Below the pieces are notes generated by a model, which saw nothing but the letters and a program-made list of their open reading frames with translations, did no database searches and had not been told where the DNA came from. 64,000 nucleotides of DNA from Desulfobacca acetoxidans DSM 11109 (lineage in GTDB: Bacteria; Desulfobacterota; Desulfobaccia; Desulfobaccales; Desulfobaccaceae): positions 2,852,001 through 2,916,000 of the forward strand of contig NC_015388.1 in the NCBI RefSeq assembly GCF_000195295.1. Direction: 5' to 3'. The number at the start of each line of letters is the position of its first letter. Position 1 is the first letter of the stretch. Below, piece after piece: positions 38,990 to 43,937 of the stretch. A program made the position numbers and the translations under genes.

Positions 38990-39613
38990 TTATTCCTGTC
39001 GCATGGCGCTGCGAGAACCGCCCACGTTTTTAAACACAGCCTGAAAGTTGCGATACAGACTCTTATTATACCTGATGCGGTGACACTTCTTGAGATAGCG
39101 GTTCTTATCGGGGTTGTCCGGCAATAAATCCAGACCCTCCCAACCTTGCGGGCGGGGAAAGGCATAATAAGGATATGCCTTCGGGATGCCGCGCACATAC
39201 GCCACCTGCGGGATCACCCATTCCGAGCGGGCCAGATACACCCGGTGCATACCGTCATTGATGAGATGCGCCAGCGAGCCGTCGGCTTCGAAAGACTCCT
39301 CGACAACCGGGGGATACAGATCGTAATCCACCAGGTCGCCATTTTTTTCTCTGACCGTATAGGTAACAAAACCGTTCAGTTGAAACATATCCATCCCGTG
39401 CTCCCGGAGACTCCAGCGCAGTTCCTGCACCTTGCGCAATTCCGTCAACCAGATATAGTTCTGCGGCGGGTGCAGATAGTTGGTATGTATCTGCTCCAGG
39501 GAGATGAGGGCGGGCTGATAGATTAATACCTCGGGCTGCTCCTGCAACGGCACCCGCCGCAGTCGGGCGATGAGTTCAATCTCGGGATGATGTTTCACCT
39601 GGACAATTTCCAT
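38990..39613 (-). CDS. Hypothetical protein with DGxHR (ParB/sulfiredoxin-like) motif
   Basis: A 207-residue soluble protein. The central segment SLAHLINDGMHRVYLARSEW has the D-G-x-H-R motif (D120-R124) seen in ParB/sulfiredoxin-fold proteins, here used for nucleotide or nucleic-acid processing. The fold call rests mostly on that motif. The N-terminus LRRVPLQEQPEVL is basic. It lies 190 nt downstream of a thymidylate-synthase-like gene on the same strand, with a family A repeat between, and is the last gene of the accessory island. Confidence 0.55.
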   Translation of the reverse strand: MEIVQVKHHPEIELIARLRRVPLQEQPEVLIYQPALISLEQIHTNYLHPPQNYIWLTELRKVQELRWSLREHGMDMFQLNGFVTYTVREKNGDLVDYDLYPPVVEESFEADGSLAHLINDGMHRVYLARSEWVIPQVAYVRGIPKAYPYYAFPRPQGWEGLDLLPDNPDKNRYLKKCHRIRYNKSLYRNFQAVFKNVGGSRSAMRQE

Positions 39614-39802: not shown

Positions 39803-41278
39803 TCATTCCTGTTCAAATTCCCGGCCGGTCCGCAAACACTCCTCCGCCCGCGTCAACTGCCGGCCCAAGTAGATGGCATGATTCAGATCCGAGAGGGCCA
39901 GGTCCCGAGCCAATTGATGCTGCAATCGGACCGCCTTTCTGTCACGGTATTCTTTCAAGGTGACATCGCCGTAGCGATGCTCCACCAGGATCTCGCCCTC
40001 ATCCAGACTGATCCTGAAATAACCGCAAGGGTCTTCCCGGATGCCAAAAGGTCGGCGGCCGACCACGGCCAGGGCCCGGTCCAACTCTTTGCGATCGATG
40101 CTGATGGAATGGCTCACCACGGTAATCGGGCCAATGGGCATACCTAATCTTAGGGCCACCCATTGCTGCAATGCCATGAGACCGTAGACGTTGGGCAGCC
40201 AGGCATCCAGGGCGTTGTGGGTCCGGAAGGTGGCCGTGAGGGTAAGCTTTTCGTCAAAGCGGCGAAAAAATGAAGATACAAAGCAAGGCTGGCCCTTAGG
40301 ATTTATCAGGTCACGGTTGTTGTCCCACAAGGTGAGGTAGGCCTTGCGGTCCTCTGGGTCTGCTCGGAGGCGCTCCAAACAGGCTTTAAGATTATCAGCC
40401 CCGAAATAGGCCCGCAACCGATTGCCGTAGCTGTAGGTTTCGTCGGCCCCTTTCTCCCCCCGCAGAAAATCCCGCTGATACGTCCGCAGCTTCTCCGGAT
40501 CAAAGTGAAATTCCCTTAGGGCCTCCTCCGGGTCAAAGACCGGCCGCTGAATCACCACCTTGACATTCTGCAGCTCCAACCGCTCCCCTTTGGCCAGACG
40601 GACGGGGTGGGCAAAACGGCTGATGATAAAAAGCAGCTCCTGCCAGGCCTCCAGAAAAGTGTCCCGCACGATGGTATGGGCCTGGGGGCAACTGGGAAAA
40701 TGCGAAATGCTCACCCGGGGCAAAGCAATTTCCTGCCGGTCCTTTTCTGTAACCGGCGCCTGCTTCTCTGGCCGCCAGCCATTAAAAAACTCCCGTATCC
40801 GGGCGAGCGTCCCGTCGTCCTTGGGCTCCCCCAGCCAACACACGCGCGGCGTTGCCAGGAAATGTTCACTTCGCACGAGGCTGTCTATCAGGCGGTTCGT
40901 GCCGACTATCCGGCACGTCGAAACTTGTTCCCCGGAGGTCAGGGGCTCATAGGAGACCAGCGGTGAGGCCCCATATTCCAACCCCTCGGCAAAAAACTTC
41001 TGCAATTCTTCCAGCGAACCTGACCGGTTCCGGCCGCAGACCACCAGGGTCTGAATCTGGGGATTATATAACAGATTCCGCAGCAGCTCCCGCAGGCCAT
41101 TGCCATACAGGGTGCCGAAGACCGCAATGGGCGAAGTGGCCGCATCGAGGTCAACCCCGGCCTGCCGAAAACGCTCCCTGACATAATCCACCTTCGACCA
41201 CAGGGTAAGGACGCCGATGGTCCCGGCGGGATTGACGATGGTAAGTTTGTCCTGGAAGTAGAGGGGGATGAAGTTCAC
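39803..41278 (-). CDS. Thymidylate-synthase-like protein with MtrA-like N-terminal domain
   Basis: A 491-residue two-domain protein. Residues about 9-100 (KLTIVNPAGTIGVLTLW, then SPIAVFGTLYGNGLRELLRNLL, LVVCGRNRSGS) resemble the MtrA/DUF4346 domain known from methanogen methyltransferases. Residues about 200-485 follow the thymidylate synthase pattern: TYSYGNRLRAYFG near 281, RKAYLTLWDNNRDL near 311, a Cys at 332 in GQPCF (TS has PPCH), and FRTHNALDAWLPN matching R-S-x-D ... N. A dUMP- or dCMP-modifying role is inferred. Start is a GTG at 41278 overlapping the HEPN stop (GTGA), so translation is coupled to the MNT/HEPN genes. Confidence 0.7.
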   Translation of the reverse strand: MNFIPLYFQDKLTIVNPAGTIGVLTLWSKVDYVRERFRQAGVDLDAATSPIAVFGTLYGNGLRELLRNLLYNPQIQTLVVCGRNRSGSLEELQKFFAEGLEYGASPLVSYEPLTSGEQVSTCRIVGTNRLIDSLVRSEHFLATPRVCWLGEPKDDGTLARIREFFNGWRPEKQAPVTEKDRQEIALPRVSISHFPSCPQAHTIVRDTFLEAWQELLFIISRFAHPVRLAKGERLELQNVKVVIQRPVFDPEEALREFHFDPEKLRTYQRDFLRGEKGADETYSYGNRLRAYFGADNLKACLERLRADPEDRKAYLTLWDNNRDLINPKGQPCFVSSFFRRFDEKLTLTATFRTHNALDAWLPNVYGLMALQQWVALRLGMPIGPITVVSHSISIDRKELDRALAVVGRRPFGIREDPCGYFRISLDEGEILVEHRYGDVTLKEYRDRKAVRLQHQLARDLALSDLNHAIYLGRQLTRAEECLRTGREFEQE

Positions 41279-41685
41279 GAGTCTATTTTACGATCAATCA
41301 AAGCTTTGAGTTCCGAATAGATTTTTCCAGCCTCAGTCAAGGCCTTTTGGGCTTCGGCCAAACCGGGCATACCTTCGGGTAATAATCCTATTTCTTGCGG
41401 GTAGCGGCTGTCAAGATAGATATCGTTTAAAAACCTGAGCGCTTCGGCATCCATATCGATACCGAATCCTAAGGCCTCTTCTGCCTTTTGTCGCAGCCGG
41501 ATTAGATTGTGGCTCCGGGGGATTGGCTGACGGCGTGCCGCCAGGACAGCTTTTAAGGCTTTTTCGGCACATTGCTGGGCGTGAAAGCAAGTCATCGTGA
41601 ATATTCCAGCCGCCAGCAGAATTTCAGCGCTCCGCAAGTCATCAAAGGCAAATTGCAGCCAATTTTCATGAAGGTTTTCGGTCAT
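41275..41685 (-). CDS. HEPN-domain protein
   Basis: About 136 residues from the ATG at 41685. The helical pattern FAFDDLRSAEILLAAGIF, CFHAQQCAEKALKAVLA and LDSRYPQE is that of HEPN proteins that accompany MNT nucleotidyltransferases. It overlaps the MNT gene by 20 nt and the thymidylate-synthase-like gene by 4 nt. In this class the HEPN protein usually binds or is modified by the MNT partner; no R-x4-6-H RNase motif is clear apart from RSHNL, so toxicity is uncertain. Confidence 0.8.
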   Translation of the reverse strand: MTENLHENWLQFAFDDLRSAEILLAAGIFTMTCFHAQQCAEKALKAVLAARRQPIPRSHNLIRLRQKAEEALGFGIDMDAEALRFLNDIYLDSRYPQEIGLLPEGMPGLAEAQKALTEAGKIYSELKALIDRKIDS

Positions 41686-42007
41686 AGACAGTGACGCCGG
41701 TGGCCAAAATATGATGGAGAAAAGATGAGGGATGATCCTTGAATCGTTCCACCTCCTCTGGAGTGTAGAAGAGGATATCCAGACCAATATTTTTATCCAG
41801 GTCGTGCAACAACCGCCTGACTTTTAAACGCCGGTCCAAAGGCCGCTCCCGGGAAGGGGCAATGATCAGGATATCAATATCACTATACTCATCCGTTCTG
41901 CCGGTCACCTGCGACCCGAACAGGACAATTTTTTCCAGATCGATCTGCCCGGTCAGCTTCTGGATGATTTCGTTGATGAGTTTATTCAACTCTCCATGAA
42001 AGATCAT
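41666..42007 (-). CDS. MNT-type nucleotidyltransferase
   Basis: About 113 residues from the ATG at 42007, which is 6 nt after GAGGAG. The core LFGSQVTGRTDEYSDIDILI is G-S-x9-10-D-x-D, the catalytic signature of minimal nucleotidyltransferases. With the overlapping HEPN gene it makes a two-gene cassette different from the MntA/HepT pair at 6 kb. Its 5' region is part of a 64-bp segment that is repeated at 43.1 kb. Confidence 0.82.
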   Translation of the reverse strand: MIFHGELNKLINEIIQKLTGQIDLEKIVLFGSQVTGRTDEYSDIDILIIAPSRERPLDRRLKVRRLLHDLDKNIGLDILFYTPEEVERFKDHPSSFLHHILATGVTVYDRKPS

Positions 42008-42058
42008 GCTCATCTCCTCGGACTCTAAACTTTTCTCCCGGTAATTGCAATCGGCTCA
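41995..42058. repeat. Near-perfect 64-bp direct repeat, copy 1
   Basis: Covers the last codons of a gene fragment (ending GRKV-stop), the ribosome site GAGGAG and the first codons (MIFH) of the MNT gene. Copy 2 at 43078-43142 has the same three parts before a HicB remnant. Confidence 0.85.
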
Positions 42059-42357
42059 CCCGCCGGTTCGAAAGCCGGATTATCGCCGGCATACTGCTGC
42101 CAGCGGATTTTGTTGCGCTCTTTCCCCAGGAGTTTTATGTCGTCAGTCTGTGCTATAGAGGGTGCCGCAGAAATTGGGGAGGAGCCAGGATCAAGGTTAA
42201 CCCCGGCCTGGCGGAAGCGTTCCATAAAGTAGTCCACCTTGGACCATAGGGTGAGCACGGCGATGGTCCCGGCGGGATTGACAATGGTCAGTTTATCCTG
42301 GAAGTAGAGGGCGATGAAGTTCTTAGGAGTATTTAGAATATTCACGCTCAGGCTCAA
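42025..42357 (-). pseudogene. Remnant of a second thymidylate-synthase-like gene
   Basis: The first 55 or so codons repeat the N-terminus of the 39803 protein (NFIALYFQDKLTIVNPAGTI, VLTLWSKVDYFMERFRQAG) and then break at SSPIS into an unrelated tail ending in GEPIAITGRKV. The TTG at 42357 overlaps the relE stop. It is read as a truncated duplicate joined to a foreign 3' end. Confidence 0.75.
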
Positions 42358-42635
42358 TAGACCTCTTTATGGGTTCCCAGCGTTAACAATAGTATTGCTT
42401 CTTTTCCCTGGAAAGTAACAAAATCAAATAGTATCCTTAGATCGTAATCGACGCTGCAGGCCCAAGAGCCCTCTAATTTGCCCTTTAACTTATGGGTTTT
42501 CAGCTTGGGATGAAAAGCATTTTCAGCCAATAGCTCGAGGGTTGAATGAAATTCCCTAATGATATCAGGGTTCTTTTTAACTAATTTTTGAGCCGCCCGC
42601 ACGAAAGCCGGAGAACGAAGGAGCGGGCGTTTCAC
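42354..42635 (-). CDS. RelE/ParE-superfamily toxin
   Basis: A 93-residue toxin-like protein, LLRSPAFVRAAQKLVKKNP, LKTHKLKGKLEGSWACSVDYDLRILFDF, ILLLTLGTHKEVY. This is the RelE/YafQ fold, an mRNA interferase that cuts in the ribosomal A site in studied cases. It overlaps the upstream antitoxin-like gene by 4 nt. Confidence 0.85.
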   Translation of the reverse strand: MKRPLLRSPAFVRAAQKLVKKNPDIIREFHSTLELLAENAFHPKLKTHKLKGKLEGSWACSVDYDLRILFDFVTFQGKEAILLLTLGTHKEVY

Positions 42636-43090: not shown

Positions 43091-43142
43091 GCTCATCTCC
43101 TCCAAACTCTAAACTTTTCTCCCGGTAATTGCAATCGGCTCA
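43078..43142. repeat. Near-perfect direct repeat, copy 2
   Basis: 65 bp almost identical to 41995-42058, with a 1-nt indel next to the ribosome site. Its left edge contains the HicB remnant start; its right edge coincides with the point where the CARF regulator gene is cut. Confidence 0.85.
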
Positions 43143-43937
43143 ATTATATATAATTACCCTCAGTCGTTCATCTTTAGCTGTTGCCACGATCCCACAGAAA
43201 TTGATGGCAATGAACCGGTCGGCGGGACGGCCGCTGAGCCGGTGGAGAAACCGGGCAAAGAGCTCCTTGCCCGTGCCGGTCTCCCCCAGGATCAGGACCG
43301 GAACGTCCGATGGGGCCAGCAGCGCCCCGGTTTCCAGGGCCTTGACGACGCTCGGATGATCGCCCACAATGCCGCTCTGCCTGATGGCCGTCTCCAGGTC
43401 CAGCGGTTTTACGTCCGCAATCTCAGGTGCCGCCAGGCAACTGCGCACCACCGGAAAGCCGGGCTGGGTCAGGTCCACCTCCTCCAGGAGGGGCCTCTCG
43501 GCCGTGACAAATTTCGGCGGCCGGATATGCAGCAGCGTGGCCGGCAGTTCCCCCGCCGCGGCCAGCAGCAGCCAGCAGGCGTGCATCTGCGGGGTGCCCG
43601 AGGCCACCGAGATGAAATAGGTGGCCCGGGGATGCGCCGAACTGATCTCCTGGAAATGACGGCGCAAGCCGGTCAGGATCGCCAGGTAGTCCGTGGGATC
43701 GTTGAGCGGTAGATCTCTCACTTCCAGGCGAATATTGGGATACTGTTCTTTTAATGCCGTGGTAGTGAGTCGGGTGTTTTGCCGGGTGTTCGGCGTGTCA
43801 AAGAGAATGACCTCATCAAAGTTTCGGACTGCCAGCAGGGACAGAATGGGCCCGGGCACCTCCTCGCCGCCAATAAGGCCCAAGGTGTAAGGATCATGGA
43901 AGCCGGTAAAGGTGAGGAGGATATTCATTTTGTTCAT
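43140..43937 (-). pseudogene. Truncated CARF-like / sigma-54 AAA+ activator (RtcR type)
   Basis: Residues 1-150 form a CARF-like domain (ILLTFTGFHDPY, DTPNTRQNTRLTT, YFISVASGTPQMHACWLLL), as in RtcR-type regulators that sense RNA-derived or nucleotide signals. A linker is followed by the start of the AAA+ sigma-54 interaction domain with Walker A GETGTGKE at 218. It breaks after FIAINFCG with an unrelated tail, exactly at the end of the 65-bp repeat. Walker B, sensor 2, GAFTGA and the helix-turn-helix are lost, so it cannot activate sigma-54. Confidence 0.8.

Follow-up and report, generated by a model that had tools for sequence, protein, structure and literature searches.

A thymidylate synthase-fold protein with MtrA-like and DUF4346 domains as the probable dTMP synthase of Desulfobacca acetoxidans

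Cells cannot do without dTMP synthesis, for which two solutions are established, ThyA and ThyX. How does Desulfobacca acetoxidans, which grows with acetate as sole carbon source, obtain its dTMP? In the complete genome of this bacterium (3,282,536 bp), the ThyX profile (PF02511) has no match at E ≤ 1, and the thymidylate synthase (TS) profile PF00303 has a single match, a gene which fuses a TS-like domain to two other domains and is itself not matched by PF02511. Looking for thyA and thyX elsewhere in the genome, as the preliminary description of the locus had proposed, thus returned no second ThyA and no ThyX. The genome search also found no FolA and no thymidine kinase (PF00265), and we rejected thymidine salvage in D. 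acetoxidans because of the missing kinase.

The fusion gene lies at 39803..41278 on the minus strand of the window, by which we mean the whole 64,000-nucleotide stretch of DNA analyzed, and encodes a 491-aa protein with a GTG start (stop codon included in the coordinates). The preliminary description had the ORF coordinates exactly right, and the fusion containing Cys332 that it reported is real; its strand is minus, where there is a single 491-aa ORF, the plus strand of 39803-41278 being interrupted by stops. The protein is composed of an MtrA-like domain (residues ~8-170), a TS fold (202-412) and a PF14251 domain (415-491), in that order. Its Pfam E-values and the existence of 53 full-length relatives (28-75% identity) without internal stops show that the ORF does not arise by chance. 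Together with the window protein these relatives make a set of 54 full-length sequences, in which PF14251 and TIGR03283 are each matched by 54/54, PF00303 by 53/54 and an MtrA model by 29/54; in a Chloroflexota relative the MtrA, TS and PF14251 models are all matched above their cut-offs. Our search of the open-access literature, with subscription papers outside its scope, found no paper on an MtrA-TS-DUF4346 fusion, although the domain arrangement may already appear in automatically compiled databases. PPR-repeat matches returned by a single-sequence PDB search were spurious.

MtrA-DUF4346 proteins without a TS domain are present in bacteria (L016, L102 and L111), and their existence suggests that such a protein gave rise to the fusion when a TS domain entered between its halves. 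In the Chloroflexota, one fusion has Arg in place of the Cys (L098), L101/L122 has a decayed TS domain, and L102 has no TS between the MtrA-like and DUF4346 parts. These Cys-less and TS-less proteins suggest that the outer MtrA-like/DUF4346 module does something independent of TS.

Residues 202-412 (40043..40675, minus strand) are assigned to the TS fold by both profiles and structure prediction. PF00303 matches residues 284-452 (E 1.2e-7, 31.6 bits compared with a cut-off of 24.3), and the NCBIfam model of methanogen TS, TIGR03283, matches residues 207-397 (E 2e-31) with a score that does not reach its equivalog cut-off (109 versus 174.55 bits). AlphaFold2 modeling with the 54-sequence alignment gave a mean pLDDT of 90 and a pTM of 0.64, so the domains are well predicted and their mutual arrangement is less certain; with only 12 close relatives the prediction had been of low quality over the TS and DUF4346 regions (pLDDT 69.5). 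Model residues 194-412 align with TS-fold proteins with Z-scores of 20-24.7 over ~200 residues (rmsd 1.7-2.6), the highest belonging to AfhB (PDB code 9iqu, 24.7), MilA (5jnh, 22.7) and L. casei TS (21.2), and Foldseek agrees with the assignment. The TS region placed at 200-485 by the preliminary description is thereby confirmed, with its end moved to near residue 412. A shared TS fold proves no function by itself.

The active site retains the core of the TS machinery. Five residues (E. coli numbering) are invariant in all 54 sequences of our alignment A2: Cys146 (C332, codon 40283..40285, minus strand), Arg166 (R352), Asn177 (N363), Arg126 (R311) and Tyr94 (Y284). The nucleophile site reads P331-C332-F333, with the Cys in the catalytic place as first described, and R311-K312 are found where an SRR-like segment had been noted. 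R352, which had been read as the start of an R-S-x-D motif, does correspond to Arg166; the segment is R352-T-H-N355, and its Asp is not conserved. With structural matches to TS-fold proteins at Z up to 24.7 and a Cys in 54/54 sequences, the original TS assignment was not refuted on either of the grounds proposed for it. The same description considered normal dTMP synthesis doubtful on the grounds that PCH is replaced by PCF. Across the 54 sequences the equivalent of His147 is F or L, and the short archaeal-type TS proteins from Desulfobacterota and Dehalococcoidia that we compared regularly have PCL; judged by these sequences, PCF or PCL in place of PCH is a trait of the archaeal-type TS group. 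The doubt is also countered by the complete genome, which offers no TS candidate besides the fusion, and by dUMP-producing neighbor genes in several lineages.

The fusion appears to fill the role of sole TS in several unrelated bacterial phyla. A pattern-based, non-exhaustive scan of a named collection returned full-length fusions from Desulfobacterota, Armatimonadota, Acidobacteriota, Thiotrichaceae, Magnetococcales and Chloroflexota, a list that is a minimum; the carriers include relatives of Thiomargarita and Parabeggiatoa and magnetotactic Magnetococcales. Among 198 genomes of the phylum of D. acetoxidans, ThyX is found in 119 and in none of the 12 fusion carriers (Fisher p 9.5e-6), while some other TS is present in 170/186 non-carriers versus 0/12 carriers (p 5.6e-12). 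Both p-values ignore shared ancestry, the 12 carriers representing four families. A short or other PF00303 gene is present in 57/198 genomes, and classical ThyA in two of the 198, both with FolA. FolA is absent from 10/12 fusion carriers in this sample, and short archaeal-type TS genes in this phylum co-occur with it in 0/57 cases. The pattern extends to 45 further carriers from the named collection, spanning several phyla: ThyX is found in 0/45, and 40/45 have no second PF00303 match. Altogether, the 57 carriers checked include none with ThyX (0/57) and five with a second TS-like gene, three of which are ordinary-looking short ones; those of Desulfosoma and Desulfacinum have altered site residues. 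A clear thymidine kinase is absent in 54/57 carriers, with weak matches to longer proteins in some. TIGR03283 searches over eight archaeal genomes gave one usable match, which contains internal stops.

Some individual records deserve mention. The second short TS-like proteins of Desulfosoma and Desulfacinum (L127, L128) keep the Cys, have W-N for W-D and lack H-x-Y. Two divergent family members (L066, L067; 34-35% identity) have an ORF of 716-757 aa immediately 3' of the fusion gene. One record (L065) is titled Bordetella parapertussis; its nearest neighbors in the tree are Acidobacteriota, and it is probably a mislabeled metagenome bin.

Gene clustering connects the fusion to dUMP metabolism. 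A dCMP deaminase gene (PF00383) clusters with it in seven loci, from Syntrophobacterales-type bacteria, Armatimonadota and the divergent L067: it is immediately 5', often overlapping, in L043, L046, L048, L049 and L067, and L050 and L051 carry it within the fusion gene's cluster. A dCTP deaminase gene (PF22769) adjoins the fusion gene in Oscillochloris and lies immediately 3' of it in L068-L070, and another Chloroflexota lineage (L100) has a cluster with thymidine kinase and dCTP deaminase. These mutually unrelated enzymes all serve dUMP/dTMP supply, so the genomic context converges on that pathway. Two other recurrent neighbors are a HAD hydrolase gene, in several phyla, and a gene for a Parb-CE domain protein, which is found next to it at 13 loci from several phyla and is the conserved downstream partner in the window (38990..39613, minus strand; PF24392, E 1.6e-60).

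The upstream side of the D. acetoxidans gene is occupied by genes of another kind, all on the minus strand. A HEPN gene (41275-41787) and a nucleotidyltransferase gene (41666-42013) form a toxin-antitoxin-like pair, and the HEPN stop overlaps the GTG start of the fusion gene (GTGA). Because of this overlap, a toxin-antitoxin transcript may be the template from which the TS gene, presumed to be essential, is translated. The pair (41275-42013) separates the intact fusion gene from a partial, frameshifted copy of its first ~55 codons located upstream (42163-42357; 81% nucleotide identity over 176 nt). Just 5' of the partial copy is a YafQ/RelE-type toxin gene (42354-42635; PF15738, E 2e-7), and an ORF for a truncated CARF (RtcR-like) and sigma-54 activator protein, with only the first 61/168 positions of the activator domain, lies at 43140-43937.

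We consider it likely that the fusion protein is the de novo dTMP synthase of D. acetoxidans. It is the only candidate in the genome, other TSs are nearly absent from carriers, it is linked to dUMP genes, its catalytic residues are invariant and its predicted fold is that of TS. The protein would represent an archaeal-type branch of the ThyA fold in which TS was inserted between MtrA and DUF4346 halves. dUMP, supplied by dCMP or dCTP deaminase (a neighbor gene in several lineages), would bind in the TS domain, where R352 and, from the partner subunit, R311 would hold the phosphate and N363 the uracil, and Cys332 would attack C6. A methylene-level C1 unit from a tetrahydropterin, either H4folate or a modified form, would be transferred to C5 and then reduced to methyl. 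The DUF4346 domain (residues 415-491; 39806..40036, minus strand) is predicted to sit where the C-terminal tail of ThyA closes over folate, and probably helps hold the pterin. This domain, present in 54/54 members, scores 64.9 bits against a cut-off of 29.6 (PF14251, E 1.2e-17), and the name of the family, PterinBD-DUF4346, is what suggests putative pterin binding. The MtrA-like domain would not carry cobalamin but would have a structural role or bind a pterin. We infer the reaction itself, the C1 donor, the replacement of the Asp169, His207 and Tyr209 contacts, and pterin recycling without FolA.

Several observations count against a dTMP synthase. Asp169, His207 and Tyr209, constant in the other TSs compared, are altered at the sequence level in this branch; a ThyA-type oxidation of H4folate in cells without FolA needs another reductase; and five carriers have a second TS-like gene. 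Among related fusions in Chloroflexota, some no longer have the Cys or retain little of the TS domain, and the fusion may have other uses too. In 16/198 genomes there is no ThyA, ThyX or fusion, and there may be an unrecognized dTMP route. One of the 16 is G110, a 99% complete genome from the same family as D. acetoxidans, which lacks thymidine kinase as well.

The altered residues also bear on how a dTMP synthase of this kind would work. Asp169 of TS contacts the pterin. In the fusion its equivalent is Asn in 51/54 sequences, that of His207 is S, G or T in 51/54, and that of Tyr209 is Asp in 47/54 and Ser or Asn in four; three Oscillochloris proteins have the usual Asp, His and Tyr, which two further Chloroflexota fusions (L099, L100) also retain. 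The published catalytic and substrate-pocket residues of TS include Asp169 (PMC4304848), and of the two hydrogen bonds made to the 3'-OH of dUMP, one comes from Tyr209 (PMC4425018). In a quick tree, some of whose branches are long, the Asn/Ser/Asp set falls in one clade (SH-aLRT 100) covering Desulfobacterota, Armatimonadota, Acidobacteriota and Pseudomonadota, and the spread of a single clade over several phyla points, as far as sequences can tell, to horizontal transfer of the fusion gene.

A special case of the dTMP synthase reading, to which we give a lower probability, is a third chemical route, in which dUMP is converted to dTMP with C1 units or electrons not taken ThyA-style from methylene-H4folate, FolA is dispensable, and the DUF4346 and MtrA-like modules handle a different pterin or carrier. 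The protein could then be a third kind of dTMP synthase, a FolA-independent TS fold whose rebuilt pterin and sugar site is served by the two outer domains, possibly with a donor or reductant other than methylene-H4folate, and which spread horizontally across phyla. The change of Asp169 to Asn at the pterin contact, the loss of His207 and Tyr209, the missing FolA in most carriers tested and the fixation in every member of two extra domains from methanopterin biochemistry are all consistent with this. However, short archaeal-type TSs also occur without FolA (0/57) and yet those compared keep Asp169, His207 and Tyr209, so missing FolA alone demands no new chemistry, and Oscillochloris-type fusions carry both extra domains and still have the usual residues.

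The remaining alternatives depart from dTMP synthesis by the TS domain. The product could be a modified base instead of dTMP if the protein hydroxymethylates or hydroxylates nucleotides in the manner of T4 gp42, MilA or AfhB, the last a flavin-dependent dCMP hydroxylase, and AfhB (9iqu, 9iqc) and MilA (5jnh) do score slightly ahead of ThyA structurally. The gap in Z may merely reflect the compactness of AfhB and MilA compared to ThyA, though, and the fusion is the only TS candidate in bacteria which need dTMP, its neighbor genes make dUMP, and the Asn177 equivalent is invariant. Asn177 of TS selects uracil over cytosine. We find this reading improbable, and the phage-like hydroxymethylation raised in the preliminary description does not fit cellular carriers that need dTMP and have an invariant N363; a phage-type modification enzyme was rejected as the main reading for these reasons. 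It is similarly hard to credit a protein that serves in regulation or as a scaffold, its TS domain being dead and dTMP coming from salvage or an unknown enzyme: the degenerate TS domains of L098 and L101 and the lack of a known TS in G110 speak for it, but C332, R352, N363, R311 and Y284 are invariant in 54 sequences, 54/57 carriers have no clear thymidine kinase, and the fusion and ThyX or ThyA are nearly mutually exclusive.

The N-terminal domain (residues 1-185; 40724..41278, minus strand) is an MtrA-like Rossmann domain. The MtrA-type model NF002126 matches the window protein (E 9e-4) and 29/54 sequences, NCBIfam MtrA-type models match both ends of the window protein, the Pfam MtrA model matches four sequences, and a Chloroflexota relative matches PF04208 at E 2.9e-13; the window protein alone is below the reach of the Pfam model. 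In a profile search of the PDB with this domain, the MtrA structures 8q3v (E 6e-5), 5laa and 5l8x were the sole matches with E <0.02. Kinship to MtrA rests on these profile searches, as the structural search list was occupied by the TS domain and is uninformative on the N-terminus; they identify the domain as a homolog of MtrA (PF04208). Of the MtrA/DUF4346 region first placed at residues 9-100, the MtrA-like N-terminus stands, and DUF4346 is separate, at the C-terminus. The cobalt ligand of MtrA is His84 (PMC4915002), which aligns with Ser88 in a column of 51 Ser, two Ala and one Thr; at the G-H position of MtrA, the family has G-[S/A/T], or N or S as the preceding residue. A nucleotide- and C1-linked role, as originally proposed, remains very likely, and what falls is the MtrA-like part as methyl-carrying partner. 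Least probable of all is a corrinoid route, in which methyl-cobalamin on the domain related to the cobalamin subunit MtrA supplies a methyl that the TS domain passes to the nucleotide: the loss of the His84 ligand in 54/54 makes a corrinoid carrier unlikely, the family sequences showed no GAIPF-Y/F-xEN segment, the stretch of MtrA that is described as its most conserved, and corrinoid methyl transfer is not supported by them.

As a candidate dTMP synthase, the fusion can be compared to several known systems. The closest profile relatives of its TS domain are the methanogen TS of TIGR03283 and the short, 220-250 aa TS-like proteins of Desulfobacterota and Dehalococcoidia. They share with it PC-L/F for PCH, carriers without FolA, and the Cys, Arg166 and Asn177, but are single-domain proteins and, in those compared, retain Asp169, His207 and Tyr209. 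Classical ThyA (PF00303) has the same fold, nucleophile Cys, phosphate Arg and uracil Asn; unlike it, the fusion has extra N- and C-terminal domains, is not paired with FolA, is changed at His147, Asp169, His207 and Tyr209, and cannot be aligned in the Glu58/Trp80 region. MtrA, the cobalamin subunit of methyl-H4MPT:CoM methyltransferase, has a homologous N-terminal Rossmann domain, whereas the fusion is without the cobalt-binding His84 and has TS inserted ahead of DUF4346. MilA (CMP hydroxymethylase) and AfhB share the TS fold and give the best structural scores, but at ~20% identity, and they act on cytosine nucleotides, make other products and come from an antibiotic pathway or phage. ThyX is an alternative dTMP synthase replacing ThyA, often in genomes without FolA, but has an unrelated fold and occurs together with the fusion in 0/57 carriers. 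What is unusual in the fusion is its fixed three-domain form, its altered pterin and sugar contacts and its life without FolA. It is a clear candidate for the missing essential enzyme of an acetate-grown bacterium without ThyA or ThyX, and of relatives in several phyla, and the combination of altered pterin and 3'-OH contacts with missing FolA makes C1-donor supply and recycling in archaeal-type TS testable in one bacterial gene.
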